Positions 14,064-37,584 of a stretch of 44,671 nucleotides of DNA are shown one piece after another. Source of the DNA: Bacteroidaceae bacterium (GTDB taxonomy: Bacteria; Bacteroidota; Bacteroidia; Bacteroidales; Bacteroidaceae); contig JAKSLL010000022.1 in NCBI GenBank assembly GCA_024401215.1, forward strand, positions 1-44,671, given 5' to 3'. The notes under the pieces are model-generated. The model made no database searches and was not told the origin of the DNA. It saw only the letters and a list, made by a program, of their open reading frames with translations. A program made the translations under genes and the position numbers. How positions within the stretch are numbered: the stretch's first letter is position 1; each line of letters opens with the position of its first letter.

Positions 14064-14126
14064 TTTGTTTTGCTTAAACAAGTAGTTTTGTTATGAGCCA
14101 TCCTGCCTTGATGACAAATGGCGGTG

Positions 14127-16602: not shown

Positions 16603-16664
16603 TTTTATGTTGTTTTTGTAGTTTTGTCTTTTGGTCATTTTTAGTCTCGCCAGTCTATGATAAT

Positions 16665-19202: not shown

Positions 19203-19325
19203 CAACATGATATAATAATGTATGTGTTAGATGTGAGTTAACATAAGTTACAAGTAGTGGGGGAGTACGTTGGCAAGAGATAACGGACTATTTTTTCAAA
19301 ACGCATCGGGTCCGGTGGTCCTCCT

Positions 19326-19377
19326 AAAAAAGCTATGTCGCTATAAAAATATAAAAATAAATTTATAGCAACATAGC
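19326..19377 (-). terminator. Terminator downstream of the GH31 gene
   Basis: GCTATGT-GCTATAAA (from 19332) pairs with TTTATAGC-ACATAGC (to 19377), 15 pairs with one mismatch. On the minus strand it is followed by six T (19326-19331). It separates GH31 from the GH2-GH3 unit. Confidence 0.8.
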
Positions 19378-19387
19378 ATTATTTGCT

Positions 19388-22300
19388 TTACAGCTGCACT
19401 GTGGCAGACTTTCCATCGTATTTCACAACTTTGCCCTCTGCCTCAGGGTTGTAGCCTTGAACCTTGTCTTTAGAAACTGCTACTATTGTGAATGTGCGGT
19501 TTTTAAGCATTCCAGGATATTCACCTTGACGGTCAGCAATAGTAAGAGTCTTCTTTGCATCGTTATAAGTAAACTTTATCTTGGAATAGCGTCCTGCCTC
19601 ATATCCATAGTTTACACCTTCATCTTCATATAGAGTGAACTCTCCGTCTGCACCTTGATATACATAAAGGCGGATATTATCAGCTTTCTTCTGCTGAGTG
19701 TATTCGATTGCTGGGCCGAATGGGATTATGCTTCCTGCTCGGACACAGAGAGGGATGTGGCTGTATGGAGCAGGCATAGTCTTTGTCTCACCTCCATTGC
19801 TGACAATTTCTCCTGTATAGAAGTCATACCAAAGATTATCCTTAGGGAAGTACACCTCACGCTGACGAGCACCATACTGATAGACAGGGTTTACCATGAT
19901 AGCAGGTCCAAACATAAACTGATAGCCAATATTATGTACAGCCTTGTCTTTTCCGAAATCCATAACAAGAGGACGCATTATGGTATAGTCATTGAAATGC
20001 ACGTCAGCAGCAAGAGAGTAGATGTAAGGCATAAGTCTATAGCGAAGCTGAAGACATGACTTTATTACATCGTATGCAGGATGACCTTCTGGAGCTATAT
20101 TCCATGGCTCACGGAATGGGAATTGACCATGAGAACGATAAATAGGAGCGAACATGCCAAGCTGATGCCAACGAGCGTTGAGTTCACGCCAGTCTTTAAG
20201 GTCATTGTTTTCAATGCCTTTCTCATCATAGAGACTCTGGGCAGCAGCATATCTCTTCTCAACAGAGAAACCACCAATATCCTGACTCCAGAATGGCACA
20301 CCAGAGATAGAGAAGTTCAAACCAGCAGTTATCTGAGCTTTCAGATCCTCCCAACGAGTGCCTATATCACCTGACCATGTTGCTGTAGAATAACGCTGTT
20401 CAGCTGCGAATCCGTTTCGAGTCAAAAGGAATACACGCTTATTATTAGGTGAGAAGTCATTGCCAAAACCACGTTGATTCCACTTTGCTTCAGCCATAAG
20501 CTTCTTAGAATCGAGAGGGTCAATCTTGCTTTTTTCTACGGCTGTCTCATAGCCACGCTGTCCGTCATAGATAGCTTCTGCATTGACAATAGAATAAGCA
20601 TTGAAATATTCATCTGAAGAACCGTATTTAGTAGGTCCGCAGAGTAATTTGCGATACTCAAGATCAGTACAGTCGCGGACATTAGGCTCAGAGGCATCCA
20701 TCCACCACGCATCCATACCTATAGTGCCAAGCTTTTCGTAAAGCTGTCGCCAGAAAAACTTACGAGCATCCTCATCATAAGCATCATAGAATGCATACTT
20801 ATATCCAAGCCAGTCGTAAAGGCTGTCCTTGACAGATTGCTGATAGATATAGCCTTTGTCTTGAAGCTCTTTGTAATTATCGACAGTGAGATAATACTTA
20901 GGCCAACATGAAATCATAATCTTGGCATGATTCTGATGTATAGTGTCTATCATACCTGCCGGGTCTGAGAAACGAGAAGGGTCAAACTCAAATGCTCCCC
21001 ATGAGTCTGGTGTCCAATAGTTCCAGTCCATGACGATATTGTCAATAGGAAGATTACGCTGGCGGAATCCATCAAGAGCATCAAGAATCTCACTCTGAGT
21101 CTTATAGCGTTCACGACTCTGCCAATAACCAAGAAGCCAATCCGGCATAATCTGAGCCTTTCCTGTGAGTGTGCGATAACCAGAAATAACCTCATCCGCG
21201 TTATCACCATCAATGAAATAGTAGTCGAGCTGCTTTGTCATCTCGCTCCAGAATGAGAGCTTGTTCTGCTCCGCTTGATCTACAGGAGCGTAAGCACGAA
21301 GTCCACAATATGCCTCACCACCATCAGGTGTCCACTCAAGTCGGAATGTGTATTTCTTGCCTTTTTCAAGGTTTACGGCAAACTTACGAGCATTAGGATT
21401 CCACGCTGTGCGCCAGATTGTCTGCTCTGTACTGCCTGTGCCTGCCACATCCTCTGTGTAAACATCTTTGCCATCAATGAAAATGCGCTGATAGCCAGAA
21501 TAGTAATGGCTGAATTTATATTCGCCAGTCTCAAGAGGCTCGATTGTACCTTCATACACAACTGTTGCATTGTCGAGTCGGAAACCCTTTGGAAGGTTTT
21601 TAGCTGACTTGAGGTTTTCGAAATACAAACTGTCTTCACGACGTACGAGGGTTTCCTGCCCTGGAGCAGAATATGTGCCAGTGAGAGCACCCCCTTTGCC
21701 ATCTTTATCTTCAAGCTTGAACACTTCATGTAGCTGGCTGTAGTCGTTAGGATTGCCAAAACGGCAGAGCGAATAACTATCGAGAAGTATACCGTAATTG
21801 TTAGATGAAACAATAAATGGTATGCTTACCTTAGTGTTATACTGGAAAAGCTCCTCGTTCTTTCCCTTATAATTCCATTCATCAGCCTGATGCTGTCCCA
21901 ACCCGTAGAATGCTTCGTCATCGGGGCTTTCAAACACTTGACGAATGGTCCATCCCTGATAGTTTTCTTCTTTGCCATCTGCATGTGTCTGCACACATTG
22001 GTATGGCTTGAACTCTTTGCCGCCACCATTTTGTTCGTGAATGATAAGGTTACCCACCGAGTCGGTGAACCATACTTCGCCAGTAGAAGCAAGAACATTT
22101 GCCTTGATAGATTTAGTAGAAATTGTGACAGTATCTCCAAGATTGCTCACCTCATAAGGTGTCTCCATTTTCTGGTCAACAATAATAAGACTTTGTGGGT
22201 CACTGAATTTATCTTCAGCAGTTGCAGACACACGGAAAATTTTCTCACCCATAACCTGCAAACGCACAAGTTTCGGAACAGACGAAATGCTGTCTGCCTG

Positions 22301-22408
22301 TCTTACTTGAACAATAACTCCATTCTCGGTGGTCTTATACACACCTTTGTCACCGCAATTTGCAAGAGCAAGTCCTGCAAACATTAGAAACAAATAGTTT
22401 TTTTTCAT
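19388..22408 (-). CDS. GH31 alpha-xylosidase-like lipoprotein with inserted PA14 domain
   Basis: Probably removes alpha-linked xylose from xyloglucan oligosaccharides. The 1006-residue product begins MKKNYLFLMFAGLALANCGD, with a lipobox-like LANC (C18), so it is likely lipid-anchored. After an N-terminal beta domain, a PA14-like insert spans about 245-375 (ATVVYEGTIEPLETGEYKFS, then a strand with IFIDGKDVY). The GH31 barrel follows, with DWNYW, the nucleophile D571 in WWMDASEPN and the acid/base D681 in WSGDIGTRW. The PA14 insert is known from alpha-xylosidases of Bacteroidetes xyloglucan loci and from Cellvibrio Xyl31A. It has its own terminator before GH2. Family assignment is firm; substrate is inferred from the PA14 insert and neighbours. 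Confidence 0.92.
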   Translation of the reverse strand: MKKNYLFLMFAGLALANCGDKGVYKTTENGVIVQVRQADSISSVPKLVRLQVMGEKIFRVSATAEDKFSDPQSLIIVDQKMETPYEVSNLGDTVTISTKSIKANVLASTGEVWFTDSVGNLIIHEQNGGGKEFKPYQCVQTHADGKEENYQGWTIRQVFESPDDEAFYGLGQHQADEWNYKGKNEELFQYNTKVSIPFIVSSNNYGILLDSYSLCRFGNPNDYSQLHEVFKLEDKDGKGGALTGTYSAPGQETLVRREDSLYFENLKSAKNLPKGFRLDNATVVYEGTIEPLETGEYKFSHYYSGYQRIFIDGKDVYTEDVAGTGSTEQTIWRTAWNPNARKFAVNLEKGKKYTFRLEWTPDGGEAYCGLRAYAPVDQAEQNKLSFWSEMTKQLDYYFIDGDNADEVISGYRTLTGKAQIMPDWLLGYWQSRERYKTQSEILDALDGFRQRNLPIDNIVMDWNYWTPDSWGAFEFDPSRFSDPAGMIDTIHQNHAKIMISCWPKYYLTVDNYKELQDKGYIYQQSVKDSLYDWLGYKYAFYDAYDEDARKFFWRQLYEKLGTIGMDAWWMDASEPNVRDCTDLEYRKLLCGPTKYGSSDEYFNAYSIVNAEAIYDGQRGYETAVEKSKIDPLDSKKLMAEAKWNQRGFGNDFSPNNKRVFLLTRNGFAAEQRYSTATWSGDIGTRWEDLKAQITAGLNFSISGVPFWSQDIGGFSVEKRYAAAQSLYDEKGIENNDLKDWRELNARWHQLGMFAPIYRSHGQFPFREPWNIAPEGHPAYDVIKSCLQLRYRLMPYIYSLAADVHFNDYTIMRPLVMDFGKDKAVHNIGYQFMFGPAIMVNPVYQYGARQREVYFPKDNLWYDFYTGEIVSNGGETKTMPAPYSHIPLCVRAGSIIPFGPAIEYTQQKKADNIRLYVYQGADGEFTLYEDEGVNYGYEAGRYSKIKFTYNDAKKTLTIADRQGEYPGMLKNRTFTIVAVSKDKVQGYNPEAEGKVVKYDGKSATVQL

Positions 22409-25115: not shown

Positions 25116-26660
25116 GTTTATACATCTATATTTTTATAGTTTTATACAAAAATAGCAACAATGCTTTATATTACCAAATAAAAATAAGATTATTTCATTC
25201 TATTATTAATGGAAAAATATAAAACAATTATCATAGGTCGATTTGTTTGACATAACTTAAAAATAAAAATTGAGCCAAAAAAATTAATTGATCAATATAG
25301 AAATATAAATATAGTTTTATTGGGAAATGTAAACATAGAAGAACACAAAACTTTTGTGTCATTAAAGAGTGGGTACTGATTCAACGTAATTAAAAAAAAT
25401 AAATAAATATAAATATATGACAATATAAAAATATAATGATAGTAAACAAATGATAAAATAGCAATTGTCCATTGTCCATCATGAAAGAAATTAAGAGATT
25501 TAAAATTTCCACTAAATCATAAATACCTATGCTTAAACATGACTATAACTATTGAATCAAAACAAACAGTTTGCTTTGTAACGTAGCGTACCAAAACTAT
25601 CTTTCTGAATTAAAAATCCACTTGTAAATGAAAAATGAATAATATATGATTAAAGAAAACACACTTATGTAATTGAAAATGAATACAGACAAAAGCGATT
25701 TTGGATAGTTTTATATTTTTATATTGTAATATAATAATAGTAAAACAAATTCCTGGTAAAAACATCTGTATTGTCAAAACCATTTTGGCTTAGCGCAGCT
25801 ATGCGATAAACATACAAATAACAAAAAGAATGAAAATATAAGAATAAACAATTATGCTGACAAACATTTACAAGGAAATATCGTTCACTTAAACATAAAA
25901 TGTAAACAGACATGAAATATTATATACCTTTGATATTGTTATGATTATCCTAAATAAAAGGAAAAACGATATAGGATATATGATTTTATAGTTTTATATA
26001 TAGATATTAATATAGAAAACATGAAAGAATTATAAATATTAAAACAATATATTATTACTATCGAATACCAGATAGTTATCAATATTATTCAAATAGATAA
26101 CGCATCATAAAGAAGAAAGAGTGATGAGAAAAATCCACGAAGACAAAAGATTAAAATATTAAAATAGTTTTATATTTTAGTATGTCCAAGCAGTATGCGA
26201 TTTCATCGAGAAAACTAAAAACTTTATATGACAATTATAAAAATAGTTTTATAGAAAGTAATAAAAATGGAAATAAAGTTTGCTATGAACAACTTTAAAT
26301 ATGATTTTATAAAACATTTTCTTTGTAAAACTATTTTCATAAGAAAAAATAAAATATCTTTGCAGTCGAAAATATATTTATACATACGAATATTCATATA
26401 AAACTATAAAAATACAATAATAGCAAATAAGAAATATAGCAACATGTATAAATATAATTTTATAGATTCTATAAATATTTCATTATAGCATCAATGCTTT
26501 ATATAAAGAAATAAAAAGAGATAAATATAAAAATATATAAATGCATTGATAGAATCATATAAATAAAGGAACGTATGATTCTGCTATAATCGAAAAGAAA
26601 GAATATAGAAAAATTGATAACATTAAATAAATAAAAATATAAAATTATAAAACAATAAAA
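25116..26660. other. AT-rich gene-free region upstream of parA, candidate centromere or unwinding element
   Basis: About 1.5 kb with very low G+C and no credible gene; one short open frame at 25719-25913 looks fortuitous. It contains seven copies of ATAGTTTTATA (starts at 25136, 25311, 25705, 25988, 26164 and 26243, with one inverted at 26397-26407; the 25311 copy is 10 of 11). It also holds variants such as 26301-26311. Such density is far above what base composition predicts. Placed just upstream of parA, it could be the partition site read by the ParA system or a melting region. TACCTTTG (25925-25932) and TATCTTTG (26355-26362) are promoter-like boxes. Confidence 0.65.
26355..26362 (+). 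promoter_or_regulatory. Candidate -7 box upstream of parA
   Basis: TATCTTTG matches TAnnTTTG. It lies about 300 bases before the parA ATG, and no clear TTTG stands at the usual distance upstream. If used, it would give a long AT-rich leader. Confidence 0.35.
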
Positions 26661-27437
26661 ATGGCAAAGACAATTGCAATACTAAATTTTAAGGGTGGAG
26701 TTGGTAAAACAACAACAGCGATAAATCTTGGAGCTGCATTAAACATCCTCAAGAAAAAGGTTCTTCTAATTGACCTCGACTTTCAATGTAACACAACATA
26801 CACACTGAATTTTGAAGTTGGAGATGGCGAGACGATATATGATACTCTCACAGCTAAAGAAGAATCTGAACTTCCAATTTATGAATACAAAGAAGGATTC
26901 GATTTTGTGCCAGCTAGCATACAATTAGAAAATGTAGGAGAACAATTAGTGAACAGACTTCGCAAAGAAGAAATACTCAAAAGAATAATAAGACCATATT
27001 CTGACTTGTATGACTACATACTTTTAGACTGTCCACCAAACGGAGGAATTCTAAACATCAATGCTATGTCGGCAAGTGACTCATTACTCGTACCTATTGA
27101 CTGCGAAGTATATTCACTTCAAGGTATGAAAATGATAACAGACAAATTCAAAGAAGTGAAAGAGTATATAAACCCGGATTTGGAAATTGAAGGATATCTT
27201 CTCACACGCTACGACGGAAGACTTGCGCTTCATAAAATGGCAGCGGTTCAAATGCATCAAAAATATCCAGGTGAAGTTTTCAATGCAAAAATTAGAAGAA
27301 ACACTGATCTTTCAAAAACTCCAGCTGAACATCTTACCATATTTGACTACAATCCTCAAGCAATAGGAGCAGAAGACTACATGCAGCTTGCTCGAGAGAT
27401 TACAGGAATAAAAAGAAAATCTACAGCAAAAAAATAA
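26661..27437 (+). CDS. parA: ParA-type partition ATPase
   Basis: ATPase that segregates a replicon together with a centromere-binding partner. It has 258 residues. The deviant Walker A box is FKGGVGKTTTA at about 10-20, Walker A' is VLLIDLDFQCN, and Walker B is YDYILLDCPP (about 115-124). There is no N-terminal helix-turn-helix, so it is of the short (Soj/type Ib-like) class rather than P1/F type. The start is preceded by an A-rich leader, as usual in Bacteroidetes, with no Shine-Dalgarno. The next gene, 84 bases on, is a small basic protein that could be its partner, and rep lies 2.4 kb further, so this is a replicon maintenance block. Confidence 0.95.
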   Translation: MAKTIAILNFKGGVGKTTTAINLGAALNILKKKVLLIDLDFQCNTTYTLNFEVGDGETIYDTLTAKEESELPIYEYKEGFDFVPASIQLENVGEQLVNRLRKEEILKRIIRPYSDLYDYILLDCPPNGGILNINAMSASDSLLVPIDCEVYSLQGMKMITDKFKEVKEYINPDLEIEGYLLTRYDGRLALHKMAAVQMHQKYPGEVFNAKIRRNTDLSKTPAEHLTIFDYNPQAIGAEDYMQLAREITGIKRKSTAKK

Positions 27438-27521
27438 CACATATTATATATATAAGGAAAACTCATATATTTATATAAAAGTTGAGAAATATAATTATTG
27501 TAAAATATAAAAATTTAAGAT

Positions 27522-27869
27522 ATGGCAGTTAAAAGAAAAATGGTTGATCTTGGTAAATCAATGCAAGAATTCGACGAGCGCATAGAAGCACAAAAAGCTA
27601 CAACTCCTTCACTCATGGAGACATTAGCACCAATTAACGAACATCCTAAGAAAAAGGAGGTAAAAGTTTTTGATAGAAAAAAAGAACGCCCTGATCAGAA
27701 GTGCATACATTTTGACAGAATGACAACTGTGAGAATTAACGAGATGAAAAACTGGAAGAGTATGCTCGGAGAGAAAACAACGGTAGAAGACATAGTATAT
27801 GATGCTGTCCAGGAATATCTCGCAAAAAATTACGAAGAACTCAAATTAAGAGTAGAACAATCATATTAA
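27522..27869 (+). CDS. Small ParB-like candidate DNA-binding protein
   Basis: Not recognised with certainty. It has 115 residues and is highly charged. The N-terminal half looks disordered (KATTPSLMETLAPINEHPKKKEVKVFDRKKERPDQ). The C-terminal 50 residues (IHFDRMTTVRINEMKNWK, then TTVEDIVYDAVQEYLAKNY) read as a short strand and two helices, which could be a ribbon-helix-helix fold like that of type Ib ParB proteins. Position directly after parA and before the iterons supports a role in partition. Two iterons begin 27 bases after its stop. A search for structural similarity to ParG/omega-type RHH proteins would test this. Confidence 0.7.
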   Translation: MAVKRKMVDLGKSMQEFDERIEAQKATTPSLMETLAPINEHPKKKEVKVFDRKKERPDQKCIHFDRMTTVRINEMKNWKSMLGEKTTVEDIVYDAVQEYLAKNYEELKLRVEQSY

Positions 27870-27895
27870 ACACATTATTAATATATAACTTTTTG

Positions 27896-27947
27896 TCGGA
27901 CGAATTAGTTAGCGTAATAACAATAACTCAACTGACAAATTAGTTAC
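27896..27947 (+). repeat. Iterons 1 and 2, just after the ParB-like gene
   Basis: TCGGACGAATTAGTTAG at 27896-27912 and ACTGACAAATTAGTTAC at 27931-27947, direct copies 35 bases apart. They lie close enough to the preceding stop to affect its transcript end or act as an operator. Confidence 0.85.
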
Positions 27948-28091
27948 ATAAAATAAAGAAAATAAAGCCAATTTCAAAAAGAGCTGAAGATAAAACCACA
28001 CATTTACAGAATTAATGTGCATAAAAAGCAAATTAGACTCTGGATGATGAAAAAAGTAATACAAAAAAATAAGGTAAAAAACTAATTTTAT

Positions 28092-28108
28092 CTTACTAAT
28101 TTGTCCGA
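28092..28108 (-). repeat. Single inverted iteron
   Basis: CTTACTAATTTGTCCGA is the reverse complement of the iteron with 15 of 17 positions matching. It is the only copy on the opposite strand in the region. Confidence 0.75.
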
Positions 28109-28307
28109 TGAATAAATGATAAATATTACAAACTATGATTTATTCATAACAGTAATATAATCAATAAGATATAGGAACATGTAATTGATGCTCTAAAAAA
28201 GAAAAATCCTTTCGAATCGATTTATATAGTTTTTAAATGAATAAAAAGGATATAAATATATCGTTTTTTGTAACTTGCTGATAATCCATTAAATAAACAG
28301 CATCTCA

Positions 28308-28554
28308 TCGGACAAGATAGTTAGTTATAACGGACAGATTAGTTACAAATATCGGACAAGTTAGTTAGTACTATCGGACGGATTTGTTACATTTGTCGGA
28401 CAGATTAGTTAAATTATCTATCCACATCCGACAAAATAGTTACTACAAACGGACAGATTTGTTAAAAAACAGCTTTATCAGACGGATTTGTTACTTTAAT
28501 AATATTAACGGACAGATTTGTTAGTTGTTACTTTTTGTCGGACGGATTTGTTAC
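28308..28554 (+). repeat. Core iteron array (ten direct copies)
   Basis: Ten 17-bp iterons. The first five are at an exact 22-bp spacing (28308, 28330, 28352, 28374, 28396). After a gap of 31 come 28427 and 28449 (22 apart), then 28478, 28508 and 28538 at 29-30. Spacings are close to two or three helix turns, which places bound protein on one face. Confidence 0.93.
28418..28426 (+). promoter_or_regulatory. DnaA-box-like site inside the iteron array
   Basis: CTATCCACA differs at one position from the DnaA box TTATCCACA. It fills the widened gap between iterons 8 and 9, where the 22-bp ladder is interrupted. Confidence 0.5.
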
Positions 28555-28587
28555 ATATATGAGACTTTATTAAATGTGGAATGCTTA

Positions 28588-28881
28588 TCTGACAGATTGG
28601 TTACATAAAAATTGGCTATACAAGATGTGAGTGAATATACAAGTTCTGAGTATTTCGTAAGACAAATTAGTTACTTTCATGAACTACAATATAGATGATA
28701 CAATAATTAGAAGGGCAGAGGATGTTACTTTTTGTCGGACGGATTTGTTACTTTTGAGTGCAGTGGTTGAATATCATCATTTCTTTACACCAGTTAAGAA
28801 TAATGAGGAGAGTGATAAAATATAATATGTAATATACGCAGGAATTAATATGTAAAAAGTATTGTCGGACAGATTAGTTAC
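28588..28881 (+). repeat. Spread iterons 14-17
   Basis: Copies at 28588-28604 (TCTGACAGATTGGTTAC), 28658-28674 (TAAGACAAATTAGTTAC), 28735-28751 and 28865-28881 (the last two begin TCGGAC). Spacing grows to 70-130 bases, unlike the core. Confidence 0.85.
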
Positions 28882-29047
28882 TCTATTATGATTAGGGGAT
28901 AATCTATAAATCAGTTAAAGGCTCTTTTATGTTATTGCTAAGCAGATGTTTCTTAAGACTGAGGGAGAGATGCGAGTATCGTGACCAACTAAAAGTTAGA
29001 CAGATGCGAGTGAAAACATAAATTCGGTCAGGATAAAATATCCAACT

Positions 29048-29056
29048 TGTGGATGA
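29048..29056 (-). promoter_or_regulatory. Second DnaA-box-like site
   Basis: TGTGGATGA is the complement of TCATCCACA, one mismatch from the DnaA box. It lies in the iteron-free gap between iterons 17 and 18. Confidence 0.35.
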
Positions 29057-29147
29057 CCAGGCTTGTTAATATTGGCAAAGACCAAAATACAATTTATCGA
29101 GCCGCACATAATGTATGGCATGTCAGAAAGAGTTGCTAAATATCTCG

Positions 29148-29473
29148 TAAGACAAATTAGTTACTTCTATGCCGCAGAAAAGTAATAAATATGAAGGTGT
29201 TGAATAAGATGATGTTACTTTTTGTCGGACGAATTAGTTACTTTTTATGTGAACGAGAAGTTTTCTATTTAAGATATTAATTAAGATTGTCGGACAGATT
29301 AGTTACTATTCTAACACATTCTTATTCTGGTATCCTATGAGTGGCAGATTAGCAATGATTAAAAGAAAACGTCACAAATTTTCATAAGACAAGTTGGTTA
29401 CTTTAGTGTAAAAGGAGAGAAAAGCGATATTTACTGATGAATGATATTACTTTTTGTCGGACGAATTAGTTAC
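29148..29473 (+). repeat. Spread iterons 18-22
   Basis: Copies at 29148, 29225, 29290, 29385 and 29457. Those at 29148 and 29385 begin TAAGAC, and each is followed 72-77 bases later by a copy preceded by TTACTTTTTG. The same pair occurs at 28658/28735, so the unit appears three times. Confidence 0.85.
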
Positions 29474-29828
29474 TTTTCGTAAGTAGGTGATCAAAATTAG
29501 TTTTATAATAGATATACTCTATTTTGATGCAGATTACTATCTTCAGCTGAAGGAGCTATGTGGGCATAGTGACTGAGGATGAAGTAGTAATATGACGAGA
29601 CAAGAAATGGATTAAATATCTATTTCGAAGACTCGGGGCGCAGCGCTCGACTTGTCGGAGCCAAAGAATGAAGGCGAACGAGAAGGTGCTAAGCGCAAGG
29701 GTGTTTCAAAAAAGAGTATAGATATTAGGAACACACTTACGAGGATGAACATATAAATAATTTTGATTACCTACTTAAGAGTATTTACATTTATTCTTGT
29801 GAGGCAGACGGCATACAGAAAATTCACA

Positions 29829-29845
29829 TCGGACAAATTAGTTAG
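29829..29845 (+). promoter_or_regulatory. Iteron 23, likely rep operator
   Basis: TCGGACAAATTAGTTAG stands alone, 24 bases before the rep ATG and about 355 bases from the next copy. Iteron replicons often repress their initiator gene through such a site; this role is inferred. Confidence 0.65.
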
Positions 29846-29869
29846 AAAATAGAAATACATAAATACTAT

Positions 29870-31432
29870 ATGGCAAAGAATGATAACGAGGGTGAGCCAA
29901 AGCAAACACCTCGTAAGACAAAAAAGCAGAAACGAGAAGACATTATTCTCACAAAAGATAATTTGCTATACCAGCCTTTAGCCCTTGCGGTTAACGGATA
30001 TGAAGCAACAGCATTTCAGCAGAATGTTGTCATTGCTGTGCTTCGTAAACTTCGTGGGGCAATCAAAGGGCAGCGTGACGGGCAATTTCAGAAGAAGCCT
30101 GTGCAGCTGAGCATTTTCGACAACGAAGGAGTACAGAAAAACTATCTTCGTGATGGTGATCTGGCTTTTGACATACATCTCAAAGAGCTTGGAGTTGACA
30201 CACCACATTACAACCAGGCATTCAAAGCTGTCTGCACTATTGCTGACGCCAAAGTGTGGGTGCCTGCTAAAAAGGGTGATGGAAAAGATATGTTAATCCG
30301 CAAGTCTTTCTTTGAGATTGGATCAGAGAATGTGGACATCATCAAAGATCCGCAGACAGGCAGAATGACGTATAAATATAAGAATCGTTCGCCAATCTTT
30401 ACTGTTATCATGAGCAAGGAAGTCGTAAATGTATTGTTTCCACAGGATGGAAGAATATACGATTTCATCGACAATACTGCCCTTATGATATCAGAGAAAT
30501 TCCCTAAGAGAATATACCTGTATCTATCAAATTTCAAGTATATGCAGGAAGGTTTTACTGTTGACTATTGGAAGTTCCGCCATGACATTGGATTCAATGA
30601 CAATGAGATAGACCCTGTCACAAAAGAGAAGATAATACTATATCCTCATTTCTGCGATTTCGAAAAGCGTGTGCTGCGTCCATCGGTAGCAAGACTCAAG
30701 GAAATGTCTGATAACGACATCAGCGATTTCTATTTTGAATATACGCCAATCAACAAGTCGGGAAAGCGTCAGAAGCACCCTGATCAGCTTCACTTCGACT
30801 TCTTCCTCTCTAATGTTGGCAAGAGTATCAAGGATGACAAAAATGCTACTCGCGAGACAATAGAGATAGAAAGCAGATTGCAGGAGGAGTTTGATCAGAC
30901 AATGACACAGATCAGGCGAATAATAACATCGCTGACACCTCAAGATTATAATCCTTTCATTCAGAAGATGGATGAGCTCAAAGAGATGATTGAATCAAAG
31001 AAGGGGCAGGTGAAAGATAAAAGAGCTTACTGCAACAAGACATTCACGGATTTCATTCAGACAAGAATTGAAGATAAGAAGAAGCATGAGTCAAAACCGG
31101 AAGAAGCGACTGTGCAACACACATATCAAGATAAATTGAATGATGAAGATGAGAAGCATTCTGTGATGGAGTCAGAACAATTTGTCCGATTATATACAGA
31201 TGAGGACTATAAGAAGTTTGTTGCAATAAAGGAGGCTTTGGCAAATATTCCTGGCATCGATGGTTGGCTGCCTGAAATCAATCTTTATCAAGTGGAAAAG
31301 AATACAGTCACCATTGTTGTGCCTACAAAAACTTTCCATGAGACATTCTCACACTATTTTGGAAGCATTCTTCTCGACAAAGTCCAGGAAGCTTTTGAGC
31401 GTGAAGTTGGCGTGGCGTGGGAGAATAAATAA
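29870..31432 (+). CDS. Rep_3-type replication initiator with DnaA-domain-I-like C-terminus
   Basis: Initiates replication by binding the iterons. It has 520 residues. The basic N-terminus (PRKTKKQKRE) is followed by a Rep_3/RepB-like double winged-helix region at about 25-320 (LALAVNGYEATAFQQNVVIAVLRKLR; FPKRIYLYLSNFKYMQEGFTVDYWKFRHDIGF; FCDFEKRVLRPSVARLKEMSD). Residues 330-405 look helical and charged. Residues about 447-515 read like DnaA domain I: a helix, W466 with LPEI, then KNTVTIVVP, F490-type positions in TFHETFSHYF, and a closing helix ILLDKVQEAFEREVG. Typical Rep_3 proteins are 250-400 residues, so this tail is an extension. A lone iteron precedes the gene and a strong terminator follows. 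Rep family is confident; the DnaA-like tail is my pattern match. Confidence 0.92.
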   Translation: MAKNDNEGEPKQTPRKTKKQKREDIILTKDNLLYQPLALAVNGYEATAFQQNVVIAVLRKLRGAIKGQRDGQFQKKPVQLSIFDNEGVQKNYLRDGDLAFDIHLKELGVDTPHYNQAFKAVCTIADAKVWVPAKKGDGKDMLIRKSFFEIGSENVDIIKDPQTGRMTYKYKNRSPIFTVIMSKEVVNVLFPQDGRIYDFIDNTALMISEKFPKRIYLYLSNFKYMQEGFTVDYWKFRHDIGFNDNEIDPVTKEKIILYPHFCDFEKRVLRPSVARLKEMSDNDISDFYFEYTPINKSGKRQKHPDQLHFDFFLSNVGKSIKDDKNATRETIEIESRLQEEFDQTMTQIRRIITSLTPQDYNPFIQKMDELKEMIESKKGQVKDKRAYCNKTFTDFIQTRIEDKKKHESKPEEATVQHTYQDKLNDEDEKHSVMESEQFVRLYTDEDYKKFVAIKEALANIPGIDGWLPEINLYQVEKNTVTIVVPTKTFHETFSHYFGSILLDKVQEAFEREVGVAWENK

Positions 31433-31474
31433 GAGTTGTGAGGCATAACTATTGCACCTTATGCTATTATATAT

Positions 31475-31520
31475 AGGTGTGCTTGAAAAGCAGGAAGTGC
31501 TTTCAAGCACACCTTTTTTG
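31475..31520 (+). terminator. Terminator after rep
   Basis: AGGTGTGCTTGAAA (31475-31488) pairs perfectly with TTTCAAGCACACCT (31501-31514), followed by a run of T. It closes the rep transcript. Confidence 0.9.
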
Positions 31521-31609
31521 TTCTTCATTGCAATGTTACTTTGTGTCATTCCAATACAGCTTAGTTTGTCATTTTTCAATATTGCTTTGTAACAGTTTTC
31601 GTGAGCTGC

Positions 31610-31719
31610 GTGTTACACGCGTAACACGCCGTATGTTACGCGTGTAACATGCCGTATGTTACGCGTGTAACATGCCGTATGTGACACATGTTACACAAGG
31701 CGTGTTGCACTTGCAACAT
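31610..31719. repeat. Array of five palindromes with an exact 23-bp period, parS-like
   Basis: Units of 18 bp at 31610, 31633, 31656, 31679 and 31702, separated by five-base linkers (GCCGT three times, then AAGGC). Unit type is RTGTTACRCGYGTAACAY; units 2 and 3 are identical, unit 4 is degenerate, and unit 5 reads TGTTGCACTTGCAACA in its core. Cores of units 1, 2, 3 and 5 match 13 of 16 positions of the common bacterial parS site TGTTTCACGTGAAACA. There is no ORF and no T run, so it is not a terminator. Confidence 0.85.
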
Positions 31720-31847
31720 ACAGCATCCTGCGCAAGGCTATACTCCAGGTATTATAAAAACCATTGCCTGTCGCTGATTTCCATCATAAAAACACTTGTT
31801 TTTTCATAGCTAAGTAACATTTTTGATAATGTTTGTTACATAATAAA

Positions 31848-31971: not shown

Positions 31972-33372
31972 ATGGCAGTTGATACTACTTCAGAAGCTAA
32001 TGGCTTCTACAAATTGAACTGGATGCAGCGCATCGGTTATGGTTCTGGTGACTTGGCTCAGAATCTGATTTTCCAAACTGTGGCATGTTATCTCATGCTT
32101 TATCTTACTACGGTGTTGAAGATTGATCCTGCTTTTGTGAGTGGATTGATTCTCGGAGTGCGAGCTCTTGACTGTATTTGGAGTCCTGTTGTAGGACGTT
32201 ATATAGACAATCACAATCCAAAATTCGGAAAATATCGTTCTTATCTTCTTTATGGCGGTATTCCGCTCACTATTGCAGCTTGCTTGCTTATGCTTCCTTC
32301 TGTAGCAGAATGGGATATGACAATGAAGATTGTCTATGCTACAGTGAGCTACACTTTGTTGAGTATGATTTACTCAGTAGTGAACATTCCTTATGGCTCT
32401 ATCATGGCAAGTATGACTCGTGACAACGACGAGGTGCTTAAGCTTACATCAACTCGTATGGTTTGCGCTAACATCGGTCAGATTATTGTACAAGCTGGTT
32501 TCCCTATCGGACTTGCAATGGTTCTTCATGAGACTATCAACTGGGAACAGGCTTCGTTCATGGCAATAGGTACTATCCCTGCTTTCATCATCTTGCCTTC
32601 TCTTCCTATCTTGAAGAAGATGTTTGGTAAGAAGGGACTTTATTACTTGCTTCTTGCTATTGGTTTTGTTGGCTTTGCCATTCTTTATGTCATCGGTAAG
32701 TTCTTTGACGTTGCTGAACTCAATATTGTAGTTCAGGGCGCAAAGGTAATGACAGGTGTTGGTCTTTTGGTTGGTTCTCTTATGTGGGCTTTGGTGCCAG
32801 AAGTAATTACTGAGGCTGAGTATCGCACAGGCAACCGTCCAGCAGCGACTGTCAATGCTCTTGCTGGTGTTGCTTTCAAGGCTGGTTTCTCTGTAGCAGG
32901 TTTCATCACTCCATTGGTAATGGGTTGGGTAGGCTTTAACTTTGCAAGCGAGGAGTCAGCACTTCCTACAGCTCCAAATGCTTGGTTCACAGTGACATCT
33001 GTCTTCGCTGTTGCAGGTTTTATTCTCTTGCTATTCTGCTTCAAGGGATGTCAGGAGCGTATTGCTACCACACCAGAGAAGCCTGTCACATACGGCGAGA
33101 TGTTCAAGGAGTTCGCTGCAAATAAGTGCTTGCAGCTTATGATATGTATCTTCATCACTGTGTTCTTAGCTTCATTTATCAGCGCACCTGTAAATGCTTA
33201 CTATCCAAAACTTGCTGATTATTCAGAAACAGCAAAGGAGGCACTTCTTTGGTTCACAACAATTATCCCTGCTGCTCTTCTTATTGTTGTCGGATTGCTT
33301 ATATATAAGTATCCTCTCACAGATGAGAAACTTGATGAGATGAACCGCGAAATTGAAGCAAGAAATAAATAA
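31972..33372 (+). CDS. GPH-family sugar:cation symporter, probable xylo-oligosaccharide transporter
   Basis: Inner-membrane symporter for glycosides or pentosides. It has 466 residues with about 12 hydrophobic helices. The N-terminus has the GPH layout: LNWMQRIGYGSGDLAQNLIFQTV, then DPAFVSGLILGVRALDCIWSPVVGRYIDNHNPKFGKYRSYLLYGGIP, where the Asp residues and the R-x3-D-N pattern match the MelB/XynP cation-site region. Directly downstream lie GH10, GH43, xylulokinase and GH67 genes, so xylan oligomers are the likely cargo. The order transporter-GH10-GH43 matches the xynD-xynA-xynB cluster I recall from Prevotella bryantii. A promoter-like box lies 94 bases upstream. Confidence 0.9.
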   Translation: MAVDTTSEANGFYKLNWMQRIGYGSGDLAQNLIFQTVACYLMLYLTTVLKIDPAFVSGLILGVRALDCIWSPVVGRYIDNHNPKFGKYRSYLLYGGIPLTIAACLLMLPSVAEWDMTMKIVYATVSYTLLSMIYSVVNIPYGSIMASMTRDNDEVLKLTSTRMVCANIGQIIVQAGFPIGLAMVLHETINWEQASFMAIGTIPAFIILPSLPILKKMFGKKGLYYLLLAIGFVGFAILYVIGKFFDVAELNIVVQGAKVMTGVGLLVGSLMWALVPEVITEAEYRTGNRPAATVNALAGVAFKAGFSVAGFITPLVMGWVGFNFASEESALPTAPNAWFTVTSVFAVAGFILLLFCFKGCQERIATTPEKPVTYGEMFKEFAANKCLQLMICIFITVFLASFISAPVNAYYPKLADYSETAKEALLWFTTIIPAALLIVVGLLIYKYPLTDEKLDEMNREIEARNK

Positions 33373-33386
33373 ATAAAAGAAAATCC

Positions 33387-33418
33387 ACTCTCCTTTGCCC
33401 TCTGATAGGGAGGGAGGT
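33387..33418 (+). promoter_or_regulatory. C/G-rich hairpin between transporter and GH10 genes
   Basis: CACTCTCC near 33387 faces GGAGGTG ending at 33418, with GCCCT/AGGG pairing inside. The 3' arm holds GGAGG (33413-33417). It lies 36 bases before the GH10 ATG at 33455. Confidence 0.5.
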
Positions 33419-33454
33419 GATTTCATACATTATATATTATTTACGCTAAAGATA

Positions 33455-34663
33455 ATGAATTATCGCAAAATACTCATCTCATCACTCTTTGTCAATGCTT
33501 CGCTTCTGTCGGTCAGCGCTCAGACACTCAAGGATGCCTATCGCGACTACTGGTACACAGGAGTGAGTGTTAATCAGTGGGAGGTGGCTGCTCAGCAAAA
33601 CGCTAAGAATGAGCATGATGTAACAGGATTTGTTGGTGCAGACCAAACAGCAGACTGGGCTGTTGTGGAGAAGAATTTCAATGCTGTAGTTGCTGAAAAC
33701 TGCATGAAGGCCGAGGTTATTCACCCTCAGGAGGGAGTGTATGACTTCACTCTTGCTGATCAGTTTGTGGAGAAATCTCTTGCAGCAGGCATGCGAGTTC
33801 ATGGTCATGTGCTGATATGGCATTCTCAATGCCCATATTGGTTCCATCATGACGCAAATGGCAAGCTTGTCAGCAAGGAAGTTCTTAAGAAACGCATGAA
33901 GGAGCATATCACCACAATCATGGCTCATTATAAAGGGCGTGTGTCTTCGTGGGATGTTGTAAATGAAGCATTTGAAGATGATGGTTCATTCCGCAACAGC
34001 CTCTTCTATCAGATTCTTGGTGAGGATTTCATACCATTGGCATTTCAGTATGCTCGCGAGGCAGATCCAACGGCAGAGCTTTATTACAATGACTTCTCTA
34101 TGAATAAGCCTGCAAAGGTTGATGGAGTATGTAAGTTCTTCCGTCCGCTCATCGATAAGGGGCTGCCGATAGATGCTATAGGCATGCAGGGACACATGAT
34201 TCTTGAGGATGGTGCTCAGGAAATCATCAGTCAGTATGACTATTCCATCAAGGCAATAGCATCTCTCGGAGTTAAGACCTTCTTCTCGGAGTTAGACCTT
34301 TCTGTCTTGCCAAACCCATACGGTTTTTCTGGTGCTAATGTGTCAGACCGCTTTGCTTATCGTCCCGAGGTTGACCCATATAAGGATGGCGTGCCAGCCG
34401 ACAAGCAAGCAGAGATTGATCAGTTCTGGGTGGACTTCTACAAGATGCTCATCACACATAAGGAAGACATAATTCGTCTTAATTACTGGTGTGTGAACGA
34501 TGGCAATTCTTGGAAGAATGACTTCCCAATAAGAGGTCGCCATGACTATGCAACGCTTGTTGACCGCAACAATCAGATGAAGCCTGTGGTGCAGAGAATC
34601 ATTGAACTTGTTCAGCCTCAGAGATCTAAGCAAGAAAAGGCAAAGAAGGCAAAGAAAAAGTAA
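33455..34663 (+). CDS. xynA: GH10 endo-1,4-beta-xylanase, single-domain
   Basis: Cuts xylan or xylo-oligosaccharides internally. The start at 33455 (MNYRKILISSLFVNASLLSVSAQ) gives a clear signal peptide and 402 residues; the frame is open 60 bases further up, but that part lies in the hairpin leader. The GH10 barrel covers about 25-385: VHGHVLIWHSQCPYWF, acid/base E171 in WDVVNEAF, and nucleophile E279 in FFSELDLSV. No carbohydrate-binding module is present, and the C-terminus is a lysine-rich tail (KQEKAKKAKKK). Lack of a binding module and the context of transporter and GH43 suggest it works on soluble oligomers in the periplasm, unlike the CBM-bearing GH10 at the left edge. Confidence 0.94.
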   Translation: MNYRKILISSLFVNASLLSVSAQTLKDAYRDYWYTGVSVNQWEVAAQQNAKNEHDVTGFVGADQTADWAVVEKNFNAVVAENCMKAEVIHPQEGVYDFTLADQFVEKSLAAGMRVHGHVLIWHSQCPYWFHHDANGKLVSKEVLKKRMKEHITTIMAHYKGRVSSWDVVNEAFEDDGSFRNSLFYQILGEDFIPLAFQYAREADPTAELYYNDFSMNKPAKVDGVCKFFRPLIDKGLPIDAIGMQGHMILEDGAQEIISQYDYSIKAIASLGVKTFFSELDLSVLPNPYGFSGANVSDRFAYRPEVDPYKDGVPADKQAEIDQFWVDFYKMLITHKEDIIRLNYWCVNDGNSWKNDFPIRGRHDYATLVDRNNQMKPVVQRIIELVQPQRSKQEKAKKAKKK

Positions 34664-34721
34664 ATGAGCTTTCTTGTGTGAATATAACAAATAATCGAAT
34701 ATAACAATACCGCCCTTGTAA

Positions 34722-34762
34722 CCCTCCACAAAAAAGGGCTCTCCCAAAAGGAGACGGAGGGG
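34722..34762 (+). promoter_or_regulatory. C/G-rich hairpin directly before the GH43 start
   Basis: CCCTCC (34722-34727) pairs with GGAGGGG (34756-34762), with an inner CTCC/GGAG pair. The G-rich arm is 8 bases before the ATG at 34771, the position of a Shine-Dalgarno sequence. Confidence 0.6.
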
Positions 34763-34770
34763 TTTCTATT

Positions 34771-35796
34771 ATGGAAGGTAAATTCTATCTTTGGCCAGCA
34801 GATTATATGGCTGACCCTTCGGTACACGTTTGGAACGACCGACTCTATATTTACCCATCTCATGACTGGGATGCAGGTGTAGGTGATGACGACAGTGGTG
34901 CTGAGTATGAAATGAAGGATTACCATGTATTCTCAACAGACGATCTTGAGGCTGTATGCCGTGGCGAGAAGGAGTTGGTAGATCATGGCTGCATCCTTAA
35001 ACTTGAGGATATTCCATGGGCAAGCCATCAGCTTTGGGACAATGATGTCCAGGAGAAGGATGGCAAGTACTATATGTATTTCCCAGCGAAGGATAAGACT
35101 GAGATTTTCCGTACAGGTATTGCTGTTGCTGACAGCCCAGAAGGTCCTTTCAAGCCATTGAACGACCCTATGCACGGTTCATACTCTATCGACTATGCCG
35201 TACTTAAGGACGATGATGGTGAATACTACTTCTACCTTGGTGGTATCTGGGGCGGTCAGCTTCAGTGGTATAAGGATAACAAGCTTGCTTTCAATGAAGT
35301 AGGTCCTGCATGTCCTCCTCCTGGAGATACAGAGGGCATCGTTCCTGCAAAGAAGTCAGAGGTTGACGCTCTTCCATCTCGTGTAGCTCGCCTTGCGCCA
35401 GATATGATGCATTTTGCTGAAGCACCAAAGCCAGTAATCATCCTTGGTGAAGATGGCAAGCCACTCAAGGCAGACGATCCACATCGCTTCTTCGAGGCAT
35501 CTTGGTGTCATAAGTATAAGGGCAAATACTACTTCTCATACTCTACTGGCGACACTCACATGATTTGCTATGCTATTGGTGACAATCCTTACGGACCATT
35601 CACATACAAGGGCGTAATTCTCACTCCTGTGAAGGCTGGTTGGACAACTCACCACTCAATCGTTGAGTTCAAGGGAAAGTGGTATCTCTTCCATCACGAT
35701 TCAGCACCATCTGGTGGAGTAAACAGCCTCCGTTCGCTTAAGGTTGCAGAACTCCACTATAACGAGGATGGAACAATTCAGACAATAGAGGGATAA
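34771..35796 (+). CDS. xynB: GH43 beta-xylosidase/alpha-L-arabinofuranosidase, cytoplasmic
   Basis: Inverting exo-glycosidase that releases xylose (or arabinose) from short oligomers. It has 341 residues and no signal peptide, so it acts in the cytoplasm on imported sugars. Five-bladed propeller with the family triad: base D15 in MADPSVHVW, pKa modulator D141 in SIDYAV, and acid E242 in HRFFEASWCHKYKGKYY. YNEDGTIQTIEG closes the domain without an extra beta-sandwich, so this is the short form. Gene order with GH10 and the transporter resembles xynDAB of P. bryantii. Specificity between xylosidase and arabinofuranosidase cannot be decided by reading. Confidence 0.93.
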   Translation: MEGKFYLWPADYMADPSVHVWNDRLYIYPSHDWDAGVGDDDSGAEYEMKDYHVFSTDDLEAVCRGEKELVDHGCILKLEDIPWASHQLWDNDVQEKDGKYYMYFPAKDKTEIFRTGIAVADSPEGPFKPLNDPMHGSYSIDYAVLKDDDGEYYFYLGGIWGGQLQWYKDNKLAFNEVGPACPPPGDTEGIVPAKKSEVDALPSRVARLAPDMMHFAEAPKPVIILGEDGKPLKADDPHRFFEASWCHKYKGKYYFSYSTGDTHMICYAIGDNPYGPFTYKGVILTPVKAGWTTHHSIVEFKGKWYLFHHDSAPSGGVNSLRSLKVAELHYNEDGTIQTIEG

Positions 35797-35986
35797 GACC
35801 CTCCCCCCTAGCCCCCTCCTGTTAAGTAGGGAGGGAGTTACCATGGGGTGGGAATGCAAGTCTTTTCTTACAAATAAAAATAAATAAAATAATAACTTTT
35901 TAAAACAAAATCCTAACTCCCAGTTAAGGTGTCAAATCATACTAACACCCCCTCCCTATTAACTGGAGGGGGCAAGGGAGAGGGTC
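35797..35986 (+). repeat. Paired inverted C/G-rich repeats between GH43 and xylulokinase genes
   Basis: The 41 bases at 35797-35837 (GACCCTCCCC...GGGAGGGAG) and the reverse complement of 35948-35986 are similar along their length, and each arm can also fold on itself. About 110 bases of AT-rich DNA lie between. The second arm ends 7 bases before the xylulokinase ATG (35994). Confidence 0.75.
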
Positions 35987-35993
35987 TTTCTTT

Positions 35994-37469
35994 ATGTATT
36001 TACTTGGTTACGACATAGGTACATCATCTGTCAAGGCATCTGTTGTTGATGCAAAGACAGGACAGACAGTAGCATCTGCTCAGTATCCAGATGCAGAGGC
36101 TCCAATCACTTCAAAGCAGGCTGGTTGGGCAGAACAGGAGCCAGAAATGTGGTGGGATGAACTTAAGCAGGCAACAAAGCGTGTTGCAGAGAAGGCTGGT
36201 TCGCTCGCTGAGGTTGCTGCTATAGGTATTTCATATCAGATGCACGGTCTTGTGTGTGTTGACAAAGAAGGCGCACCACTTCGTCCATCTATCATCTGGT
36301 GTGACGGTCGAGCAGTGCCTTATGGCAATGCTGCGTTCGATGCTATCGGAGGTGAGAAGTGTCTTGAGCATCTGCTCAATTCACCAGGAAACTTCACAGC
36401 AGCAAAGCTTGCATGGGTGAAGGAGAATGAGCCAGAAATCTATGCAAAAATTGACAAGATTATGCTCCCTGGCGACTATATCGCCCTTCGTCTTTCAGGC
36501 GGTGATAAGAAGACCACTATCTCAGGTCTTTCTGAGGGTATGTTCTGGGATTTCAAGAATAATGAGGTAAGTAAGGACATCCTCAACTATTATGGATTCT
36601 CTGAAAATCTCATTTCTGAGATTGTACCTACATTCTCTGTTCAGTCAAAGGTATGCGAAGCAGTAGCAGCTGAACTTGGCATTCCTGCTGGCACACCAAT
36701 CTCATATCGTGGTGGAGACCAGCCAAATAACGCTCTCTCGCTCAATGTTATGAAGCCAGGTGAGATTGCAGCAACAGGTGGTACTTCAGGTGTTGTTTAT
36801 GGTGTGCTTGGTGAGGTGAACTACGATAAGCTCTCACGCGTGAACACATTTGCTCATGTTAACCACAATCAGCCAGATACTCGTCTCGGTGTGCTTCTTT
36901 GTATCAATGGTACAGGTATTCTCAATGCATGGATGAAGCGTACTGTTGCACCAGAGGGAATCTCTTATGGTGAGATGAATGATCTTGCTGAAAGCGTGCC
37001 AGTTGGAGCAGAGGGTCTCTCTGTTATCCCATTTGGAAATGGTGCTGAGCGTGTGCTTCAGAATCAGAATCCAGGTGCTTCTGTTCATGGCATTAACTTC
37101 AATATCCACAAGAAGGCTCACATGCTTCGTGCTGCTCAGGAAGGTATCGCATTCTCTTTCGCTTATGGAATGGATATCATGGCAAAGATGGGAATGGAAA
37201 TTAAGACAATCAAGGCAGGTCATGCTAACCTTTTCCTTTCTCCACTCTTCCGTCGTACTCTTGCTGCTGTCACAGGCGCAACAATTGAGCTTTACGAGAC
37301 AGATGGCTCAGTAGGTGCTGCTTATGGAGCAGGTATTGGTGCTGGCATCTATAAGGATAGCGATGATGCCTTCAAGACTTTGAAGCATATTGCTACAGAG
37401 AAGCCTGTTGAAGATTGTGAAGCTTATAAGGCAGCATATAAGCTTTGGGTTGAGAGACTTGAGAAATAA
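35994..37469 (+). CDS. xylB: Xylulokinase
   Basis: Phosphorylates D-xylulose to xylulose-5-phosphate, feeding the pentose phosphate pathway. It has 491 residues of the FGGY kinase family. The N-terminal phosphate-binding strand is LLGYDIGTSSVKASVVD, and a substrate loop is ISYQMHGLVCVDKEG. SIIWCDGRAVPYG and YRGGDQPNNALSLNVMKPGEIAATGGTSGVVYG (with the probable catalytic Asp in GGDQ) follow. The C-terminal FGGY end has AGHANLFLSPLFRRTLAAVTGATIELYETDGSVGAAYGA. It lies downstream of GH43 in the same direction. Xylose isomerase, its usual partner, is not in the window. Confidence 0.95.
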   Translation: MYLLGYDIGTSSVKASVVDAKTGQTVASAQYPDAEAPITSKQAGWAEQEPEMWWDELKQATKRVAEKAGSLAEVAAIGISYQMHGLVCVDKEGAPLRPSIIWCDGRAVPYGNAAFDAIGGEKCLEHLLNSPGNFTAAKLAWVKENEPEIYAKIDKIMLPGDYIALRLSGGDKKTTISGLSEGMFWDFKNNEVSKDILNYYGFSENLISEIVPTFSVQSKVCEAVAAELGIPAGTPISYRGGDQPNNALSLNVMKPGEIAATGGTSGVVYGVLGEVNYDKLSRVNTFAHVNHNQPDTRLGVLLCINGTGILNAWMKRTVAPEGISYGEMNDLAESVPVGAEGLSVIPFGNGAERVLQNQNPGASVHGINFNIHKKAHMLRAAQEGIAFSFAYGMDIMAKMGMEIKTIKAGHANLFLSPLFRRTLAAVTGATIELYETDGSVGAAYGAGIGAGIYKDSDDAFKTLKHIATEKPVEDCEAYKAAYKLWVERLEK

Positions 37470-37505
37470 TATCTTTTGATTCACAGCTACTTATAAATAT
37501 TTTTT

Positions 37506-37574
37506 AGAGGTTAGAGTTTAGTGTGTAGAGTTAGTGGTGCCTAATCATGCTCTATCCCCTGACCTCTAACCTCT
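37506..37574 (+). repeat. Inverted repeat before the GH67 gene
   Basis: AGAGGTTAGAG (37506-37516) is the exact complement of CTCTAACCTCT (37564-37574), followed by five T and, a few bases later, the GH67 ATG. It may act as an intercistronic attenuator. Confidence 0.65.
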
Positions 37575-37584
37575 CTTTTTGATT

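Follow-up and report, generated by a model that had tools for sequence, protein, structure and literature searches.

The closest described systems to the locus studied here are the second chromosomes of Prevotella, the iteron plasmids of Bacteroides and chromids in general. The second chromosome of Prevotella intermedia is 579–868 kb long and carries ribosomal RNA (rRNA) and transfer RNA (tRNA) genes. In 2015 its origin was given as unknown, iterons and plasmid-maintenance genes were not seen in the neighbourhood of its Rep_3 gene and no clear GC (guanine plus cytosine) skew transition was reported (PMC4755523). Chromids are defined by plasmid-type replication and partition together with core genes (PMC12456017). 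Here we describe a block of partition genes, iterons and a replication initiator gene at positions 25,116–31,719 of contig JAKSLL010000022.1 (assembly GCA_024401215.1) from an uncultured gut bacterium. The window analysed is this entire contig of 44,671 nucleotides (44.7 kb; G000:C135 in our numbering of genomes and contigs), which is open and belongs to a 234-contig, 4.35-Mb metagenome-assembled genome (MAG). The host genus is that of Candidatus Minthosoma, placed at its naming as UBA4334 of the Bacteroidaceae in GTDB (PMC8957277), and not Prevotella, the setting in which the initial annotation had read the locus. We conclude that the block probably serves a circular secondary replicon of the Minthosoma genus as its origin, initiator and partition locus, and that this replicon is best called a small chromid. 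Replicons of this kind are known; the present variant is new as far as literature searches show, a search of titles and abstract openings having found no title on replicons of Minthosoma or UBA4334. A search of viral contigs found no relative.

The locus resembles the Prevotella second chromosomes in coming from the same bacterial order, in its Rep_3-type initiator and in its core genes; nor was a clean skew transition seen here. It differs from them in having a full par-iteron-rep block, in the size of the proposed rings (105–234 kb) and in the absence of tRNA genes from the scanned contigs that carry rep (Rep contigs). A 568-kb record of P. nigrescens (NZ_CP082843.1) encodes a Rep that is 23% identical to the window Rep (E 4e-16), smpB and mutS2 lying only a few genes away, and no iteron array was found beside this rep in the two stretches searched. 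The Rep_3 iteron plasmids of Bacteroides in PLSDB have a related initiator (~24% identity over 68–72% of the protein), annotated as 'replication initiation protein' in the records listed; 30 of the 33 matches are typed conjugative and, of the 20 listed, most are 35–74 kb. Iterons adjoining the initiator gene are a trait that these plasmids share with the window and its relatives. With chromids in general the block shares plasmid-type replication and partition, plus core genes. The proposed rings are small for chromids.

The origin is formed by an array of 22 iterons with the consensus GGACARATTWGTTA, located by pattern matching at 27,898–29,844 (+ strand). The initial annotation had counted 23 over 2 kb; the array itself is far above chance, and the count is 22 over 1.95 kb. 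Allowing up to two mismatches, the window contains 24 matches, 22 of them inside the array (21 on the + strand, 1 on the − strand), compared with a mean of 1.28 and a largest value of 5 in 100 shuffles of the window. The same pattern finds 4–14 sites in relatives, in direct arrays of ~100–520 bp that are shorter than the window array, counts that may be too low because the pattern was derived from the window. An inverted iteron at 28,093–28,108 (− strand) marks the upstream edge of the origin, and its TACTAATTTGTCCGA is invariant in 8/8 aligned origins. Conserved columns define an AT-rich element at 28,212–28,285 (+ strand; TCGAATCGAT ... TATAT ... TAA ... TGA), a candidate unwinding element. 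These columns are conserved in 8/8 near origins and a similar stretch is visible in two distant relatives. The initiator gene lies at 29,870–31,432 (+ strand) and encodes a 520-aa Rep with the Rep3_C winged helix (PF21205; E 2.2e-5, score 25.0 bits, cut-off 21.1), in agreement with the Rep_3 assignment first made. All 10 Rep members scanned at E 0.01, the window protein among them, match Rep3_C, and no match to Rep3_N (PF01051) was found in the window's own genome or in the 10 Rep members at E 0.01. The proposed intrinsic terminator after rep was also recovered at 31,475–31,520 (+ strand), with fully complementary arms (31,475–31,488 and 31,501–31,514) followed by T's. By analogy with iteron plasmids in general, Rep would bind the iterons and open the adjacent AT-rich element, where the replisome would load.

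Upstream of the iterons, the gene annotated as parA (26,661–27,437, + strand) does encode a partition ATPase, of 258 aa (Pfam AAA_31, E 8e-52), which is 86–93% identical to ParA in 6 other genomes of the genus and 91% identical in a further relative, G410. Directly after it lies a gene for a 115-aa protein (27,522–27,869, + strand), a candidate ParA partner whose identity is 68–86% across 6 aligned relatives. The initial annotation had called it ParB-like, a role that follows from its position: the window protein has no Pfam or NCBIfam match, and Pfam searches of 7 members at E 1 yielded no ribbon-helix-helix domain for the small ParA partner. A ParA with a small DNA-binding partner would correspond to a type Ib-like partition system. 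Motif counts place a candidate, parS-like centromere upstream of parA, in a cluster of ATAGTTTTATA / AAAACTATAAAA motifs (25,128–26,656, no strand assigned). The 11-mer ATAGTTTTATA, with at most one mismatch, occurs at 16 sites in 25,116–26,660, some of them overlapping, where a local Markov model predicts 0.65. AAAACTATAAAA occurs at 3–5 sites around parA/parB in 6/6 relatives, with few or no matches elsewhere on those contigs. A different parS-like array had been proposed at 31.6 kb, between rep and the xylan-use genes. It is a real array of a 23-bp palindromic repeat (31,588–31,725, no strand assigned), and we rejected it as a conserved parS: the palindrome was absent from every other Rep contig compared and turned up a single time on G032:C1. 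The conserved TATAGTTTTATA cluster before parA is the better candidate centromere. ParA and the small protein encoded after it would segregate the molecule, probably via the TATAGTTTTATA sites before parA.

Among the 45 genomes of the genus set, own genome included, a Rep of at least 70% identity occurs in 8 (the own genome and 7 others at 70–77%). More remote Reps occur in 2 genomes at 39–42%, and 9 have matches of 23–26% only. A sample of 399 genomes of the family, genus members included, gave 8 Rep matches, all in this genus (1/30 genera), at E 1e-60, a limit too strict to reveal weaker kin. A scan of named genomes returned 10 Rep loci (L033–L042), all in MAGs and largely overlapping with genomes of the genus set. 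Two of these MAGs are those of Candidatus Minthosoma equi and Candidatus Minthosoma caballi. G002, G008, G016, G044 and G410 share the order parA, 115-aa gene, iterons, rep. In G024 two open reading frames (ORFs) sit between iterons and rep, in G035 rep is on contig C28 with parA and iterons on C7, and in G001 the Rep contig measures 4.9 kb. Among four species the ratio of nonsynonymous to synonymous divergence (pN/pS) is 0.05–0.11 for ParA, 0.10–0.18 for the ParB-like protein and 0.13–0.20 for Rep, at pS values of 0.6–1.1. Judged by these ratios, the replication and partition block is under purifying selection. Given the conserved origin elements and the low pN/pS, it looks like an active block rather than a relic.

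Moreover, gene order suggests that the Rep contigs of G410, G016 and G035 close into circles of ~105, 135 and 234 kb. G016:C22 (JAFUWG010000041.1, 134.8 kb) starts 163 bp ahead of the ortholog of gene 8886 of G029, a sister genome that lacks the Rep. The last of its genes with a counterpart in G029 is orthologous to 7401, the neighbour of 8886 in both of the Rep-less contigs G029:C37 and G032:C1. G035:C7 spans this end junction, with four extra ORFs between. G410:C1 (CADAVI010000001.1, 105 kb) ends with a glycoside hydrolase (GH) family 67 gene and starts with an 807-aa-like gene and a methyltransferase-like gene (67–70% identity); in G029 and G032 these two have the same order and orientation and come after GH67, separated from it by a single gene. 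In G035 a 163-bp repeat (97.5%) occurs both after the iterons (C7, ~93.0 kb, L092) and before rep (C28, ~2 kb before its end, L055), a layout that suggests an insertion of at least 28 kb between iterons and rep. The other ends of C28 and C7 join by the gene order of G016, with some unmapped genes at both ends. C28 alone was considered as a complete circle and rejected, parA and the iterons having been found on C7. The flank common to G029 and G032 beyond the island described below (G029, 50.8–63.3 kb) has no reciprocal best hit of at least 48% on the compared Rep contigs. No tRNA gene was found on the scanned Rep contigs, an absence that carries little weight since the sampled stretches of dnaA contigs also held none.

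Genes found on these contigs appear to be chromosomal in sister species. In G029, where neither a near rep nor a near parA was found at the limits used, the 221-kb contig C37 with five tRNA genes carries a compact island in the order GH67, M6 peptidase, 807-aa gene, rRNA-methyltransferase-like gene, GPH transporter, GH43, xylB, 1328-aa gene, xylA, metF, holB and ricT (names taken from the family matches of orthologs). G032:C1 shows the identical island order. The xylB gene is single-copy in 41/45 genomes of the genus. Of the 8 near-Rep genomes, 6 have it on the Rep contig (G000, G002, G008, G016, G035 and G044); the other two, G001 and G024, have it elsewhere, and their Rep contigs measure 4.9 and 13.8 kb. 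A GPH transporter, GH10, GH43 and xylB come after rep in G002, G016 and G410, and in G044 and G035 the transporter after rep is more distant (41–46%). Similarly, holB was found in 40/45 genomes. In G016 and G035 the sole copy sits on the Rep contig; on G410:C1 it was seen in part, at the edge of the searched segment. G001, G008, G024 and G044 have holB on small, unplaced contigs. G035:C28 carries nrdD, metF, ricT and a PurN-like gene too. Thus the only copies of xylB and holB detected in G016 and G035 are on Rep contigs, and G029 has both on a tRNA-bearing contig. On this gene content the replicon carries genes that are chromosomal in relatives, as a chromid would. In these comparisons ortholog identity floors of 45–50% applied, and ring genes without a family call were named by our own reading. 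The NCBIfam names XylB, PurN, HolB and RlmB are top matches under the curated cut-off, with Pfam domains that pass where scanned. Because ORFs were picked greedily (minimum 100 aa, overlapping ones discarded), antisense ORFs concealed certain rep, par and holB genes, which were recovered by tblastn or genome search.

We propose that the replicon acquired the island of xylan-use genes and, in certain relatives, also core genes which, like holB, are chromosomal in the Rep-less sister. Its chromid status is shown or suggested in the relatives by gene order and copy number; for G000 it is inferred. The initial annotation had proposed the origin of a smaller chromosome or of a megaplasmid carrying xylan use. 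A complete locus under selection and apparent separate-circle behaviour with xylan and core genes in three relatives fit this proposal. The proposed circles of 105–234 kb are far below the Prevotella second chromosomes in size, and the evidence for separateness comes from the relatives and not from G000.

Several observations weigh against the small chromid. Every sequence used is a MAG contig without reads. No contig has a terminal overlap and the window contig does not close, so that circle closure is deduced and not read. The 807-aa neighbour used to close G410 is only 43–47% identical. The control for closure is weak: on G029:C37, the one contig used, the outermost genes with counterparts on G032:C1 (180 of 306 kb of which was compared) proved to be 67 kb apart in G032. 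G001 has a near Rep, yet its best ParA is only 56% identical. The Rep-bearing species are scattered on a tree of DnaA and SerB from 20 genomes that we chose among the 45 (G024 by DnaA only), and four changes are needed. The xylB tree likewise needs four changes, and 2 of 7 branches of the Rep tree are firm; vertical descent with losses and repeated gain are therefore both possible.

GC content and GC skew add to these points. Against samples of 105–167 kb of other contigs, not proven chromosomal throughout, which include the dnaA contigs of G000 and G016 and a stretch of the dnaA contig of G035, the G016 ring has a GC content of 53.4 vs 50.5% (+2.9 points) and the two G035 contigs 53.1 and 53.9 vs 48.4% (+4.7–5.5 points). 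The dinucleotide distance lies above the range of sampled chunks in 1/2 chunks of the window, 0/7 of G016 and 2/12 of G035. On the contigs that carry the island beside tRNA genes or in the same order, its GC content is 49.3 vs 45.4% in the rest of the contig (G029) and 49.0 vs 48.5% (G032). The cumulative GC-skew minimum of the window is at 9.4 kb, not at the iterons, and the detrended skew of the rings has no minimum at the iterons. A minimum just before rep in the un-detrended skew of G016 and G410, rotated to rep, was discarded as net drift, since it is gone after detrending. The asymmetry of the arms at the iterons, a weak test, ranks in the top 1% of positions in G016, 23% in G410 and 6% in G035.

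Lastly among these points stand two genes to the left of the block, whose annotation held up. serB (phosphoserine phosphatase; 10,656–11,879, − strand) matches TIGR00338 above its cut-off and is the sole match in G000 at E 1e-60, and the gene for a SufS-family cysteine desulfurase (12,849–14,081, − strand) matches TIGR01979 above its cut-off and is the sole match in G000 at E 1e-100. In the other near-Rep genomes sufS is on non-Rep contigs in 7/7 and serB in 6/6 where found (it was not found in G024). As both genes are single-copy and on the window contig, the block may have been integrated into the main chromosome of G000, as a fused or captured plasmid near the xylan island, serB and sufS that is no longer separate. 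We regard this as unlikely. In its favour, a 140-kb stretch of G032:C1 holds xylB, serB and sufS, Rep-less G029 has the xylan island on a tRNA-bearing contig and the window GC content equals that of the sample of other G000 contigs (43.2 vs 43.4%). However, Rep, ParA and the ParB-like protein are under purifying selection, the iteron array is long and the block is on apparently closing contigs in three relatives. The scanned ORFs also include no integrase family. This Pfam scan covered 25 window ORFs; 87 ORFs of at least 80 aa exist, many overlapping those 25, the remainder being smaller ORFs and one cut by the contig end (43,633–44,671). None of the 25 matches an integrase, relaxase, transposase or transfer gene family, consistent with what had been noted for the first three, and the window contains no Rfam family or tRNA gene. 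It is improbable that the window contig is an assembly chimera of replicon and chromosomal DNA. For a chimera speak the 234 contigs of the MAG, its contamination of 7.04% and its size of 4.35 Mb vs 2.1–3.7 Mb in relatives; moreover, left of 14 kb only serB has a reciprocal best hit on the compared part of G032:C1. Against it, the G016 and G035 Rep contigs carry orthologs of the GH31, GH2, GH3 and M6 peptidase genes that lie left of the block, which would put any chimeric join left of ~14 kb, and there is no GC step between 11 and 17 kb.

Returning to the small chromid, a further step may be taken, which we offer tentatively and would not favour over its negation. In this genus a division of the chromosome may be in progress: the xylan island would have moved from the main chromosome to small circles, joined in certain lineages by holB, ricT and metF, and the replicon would have merged with purN, cobW and rmuC, which in G032 lie on a distant-Rep contig. 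The placement of holB contrasts between lineages: it is on a tRNA-bearing contig in G000 (C1) and G002 (C98), each with a tRNA-Leu gene, and on the Rep contig in G016, G035 and G410. If such a division is under way, the par-iteron-rep block could serve as a model for the origin of the Prevotella second chromosomes. A mapped origin, initiator and candidate partition site, together with sister species that hold the same genes on the chromosome, would permit testing of gene moves to a second replicon and of how genes come to depend on it. Moreover, fibre-use loci of the herbivore gut may sit on replicons that MAG binning can split or lose.

The xylan module follows the block at 31,972–39,321 (+ strand throughout; Pfam and NCBIfam matches) and comprises a GPH-type transporter (31,972–33,372), GH10 (33,395–34,663), GH43 (34,771–35,796), a probable xylulokinase gene xylB (35,994–37,469; XylB is the top NCBIfam match, below cut-off, and the FGGY Pfam domains are above theirs) and GH67 (37,579–39,321). 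The order of the module is kept in G002, G016 and G410. Further on, Pfam identifies a SusC-like TonB-dependent receptor (40,321–43,620, + strand), and the cut ORF after it (43,633–44,671, + strand) would be SusD by position only. The GH3, GH2 and GH31 enzymes on the other side of the block, identified by Pfam, span 14,173–22,408 (− strand).

A second replicon family was seen in the genus. Its Reps (L011–L015, L018, L020) are 74–89% identical to L011 and ~22–25% to the window Rep, and several are on contigs of 43–65 kb that also hold a ParA of 42–45%. A purN-like gene, among others, is common to G032:C12, G041:C8 (L230–L235) and the Rep rings. The class III ribonucleotide reductase gene nrdD occurs in 17/45 genomes at E 1e-150. 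It is on the Rep contigs of G035 (C28, L052:9396–11603) and G008 and on a distant-Rep contig in G015 (C27, L228), and it adjoins a 45% ParA in G002 (C30, L227). The closest nrdD in the PLSDB search (76.8%) is that of Prevotella sp. oral taxon 299 (NC_022111.1), a 1.77-Mb record filed among plasmids that is, judging by its size, probably a chromosome. Xylose isomerase was not found at E 1e-100 in G000, G001, G002, G008 and G035, though xylB is present; either another pentose route or missing contigs may explain this.

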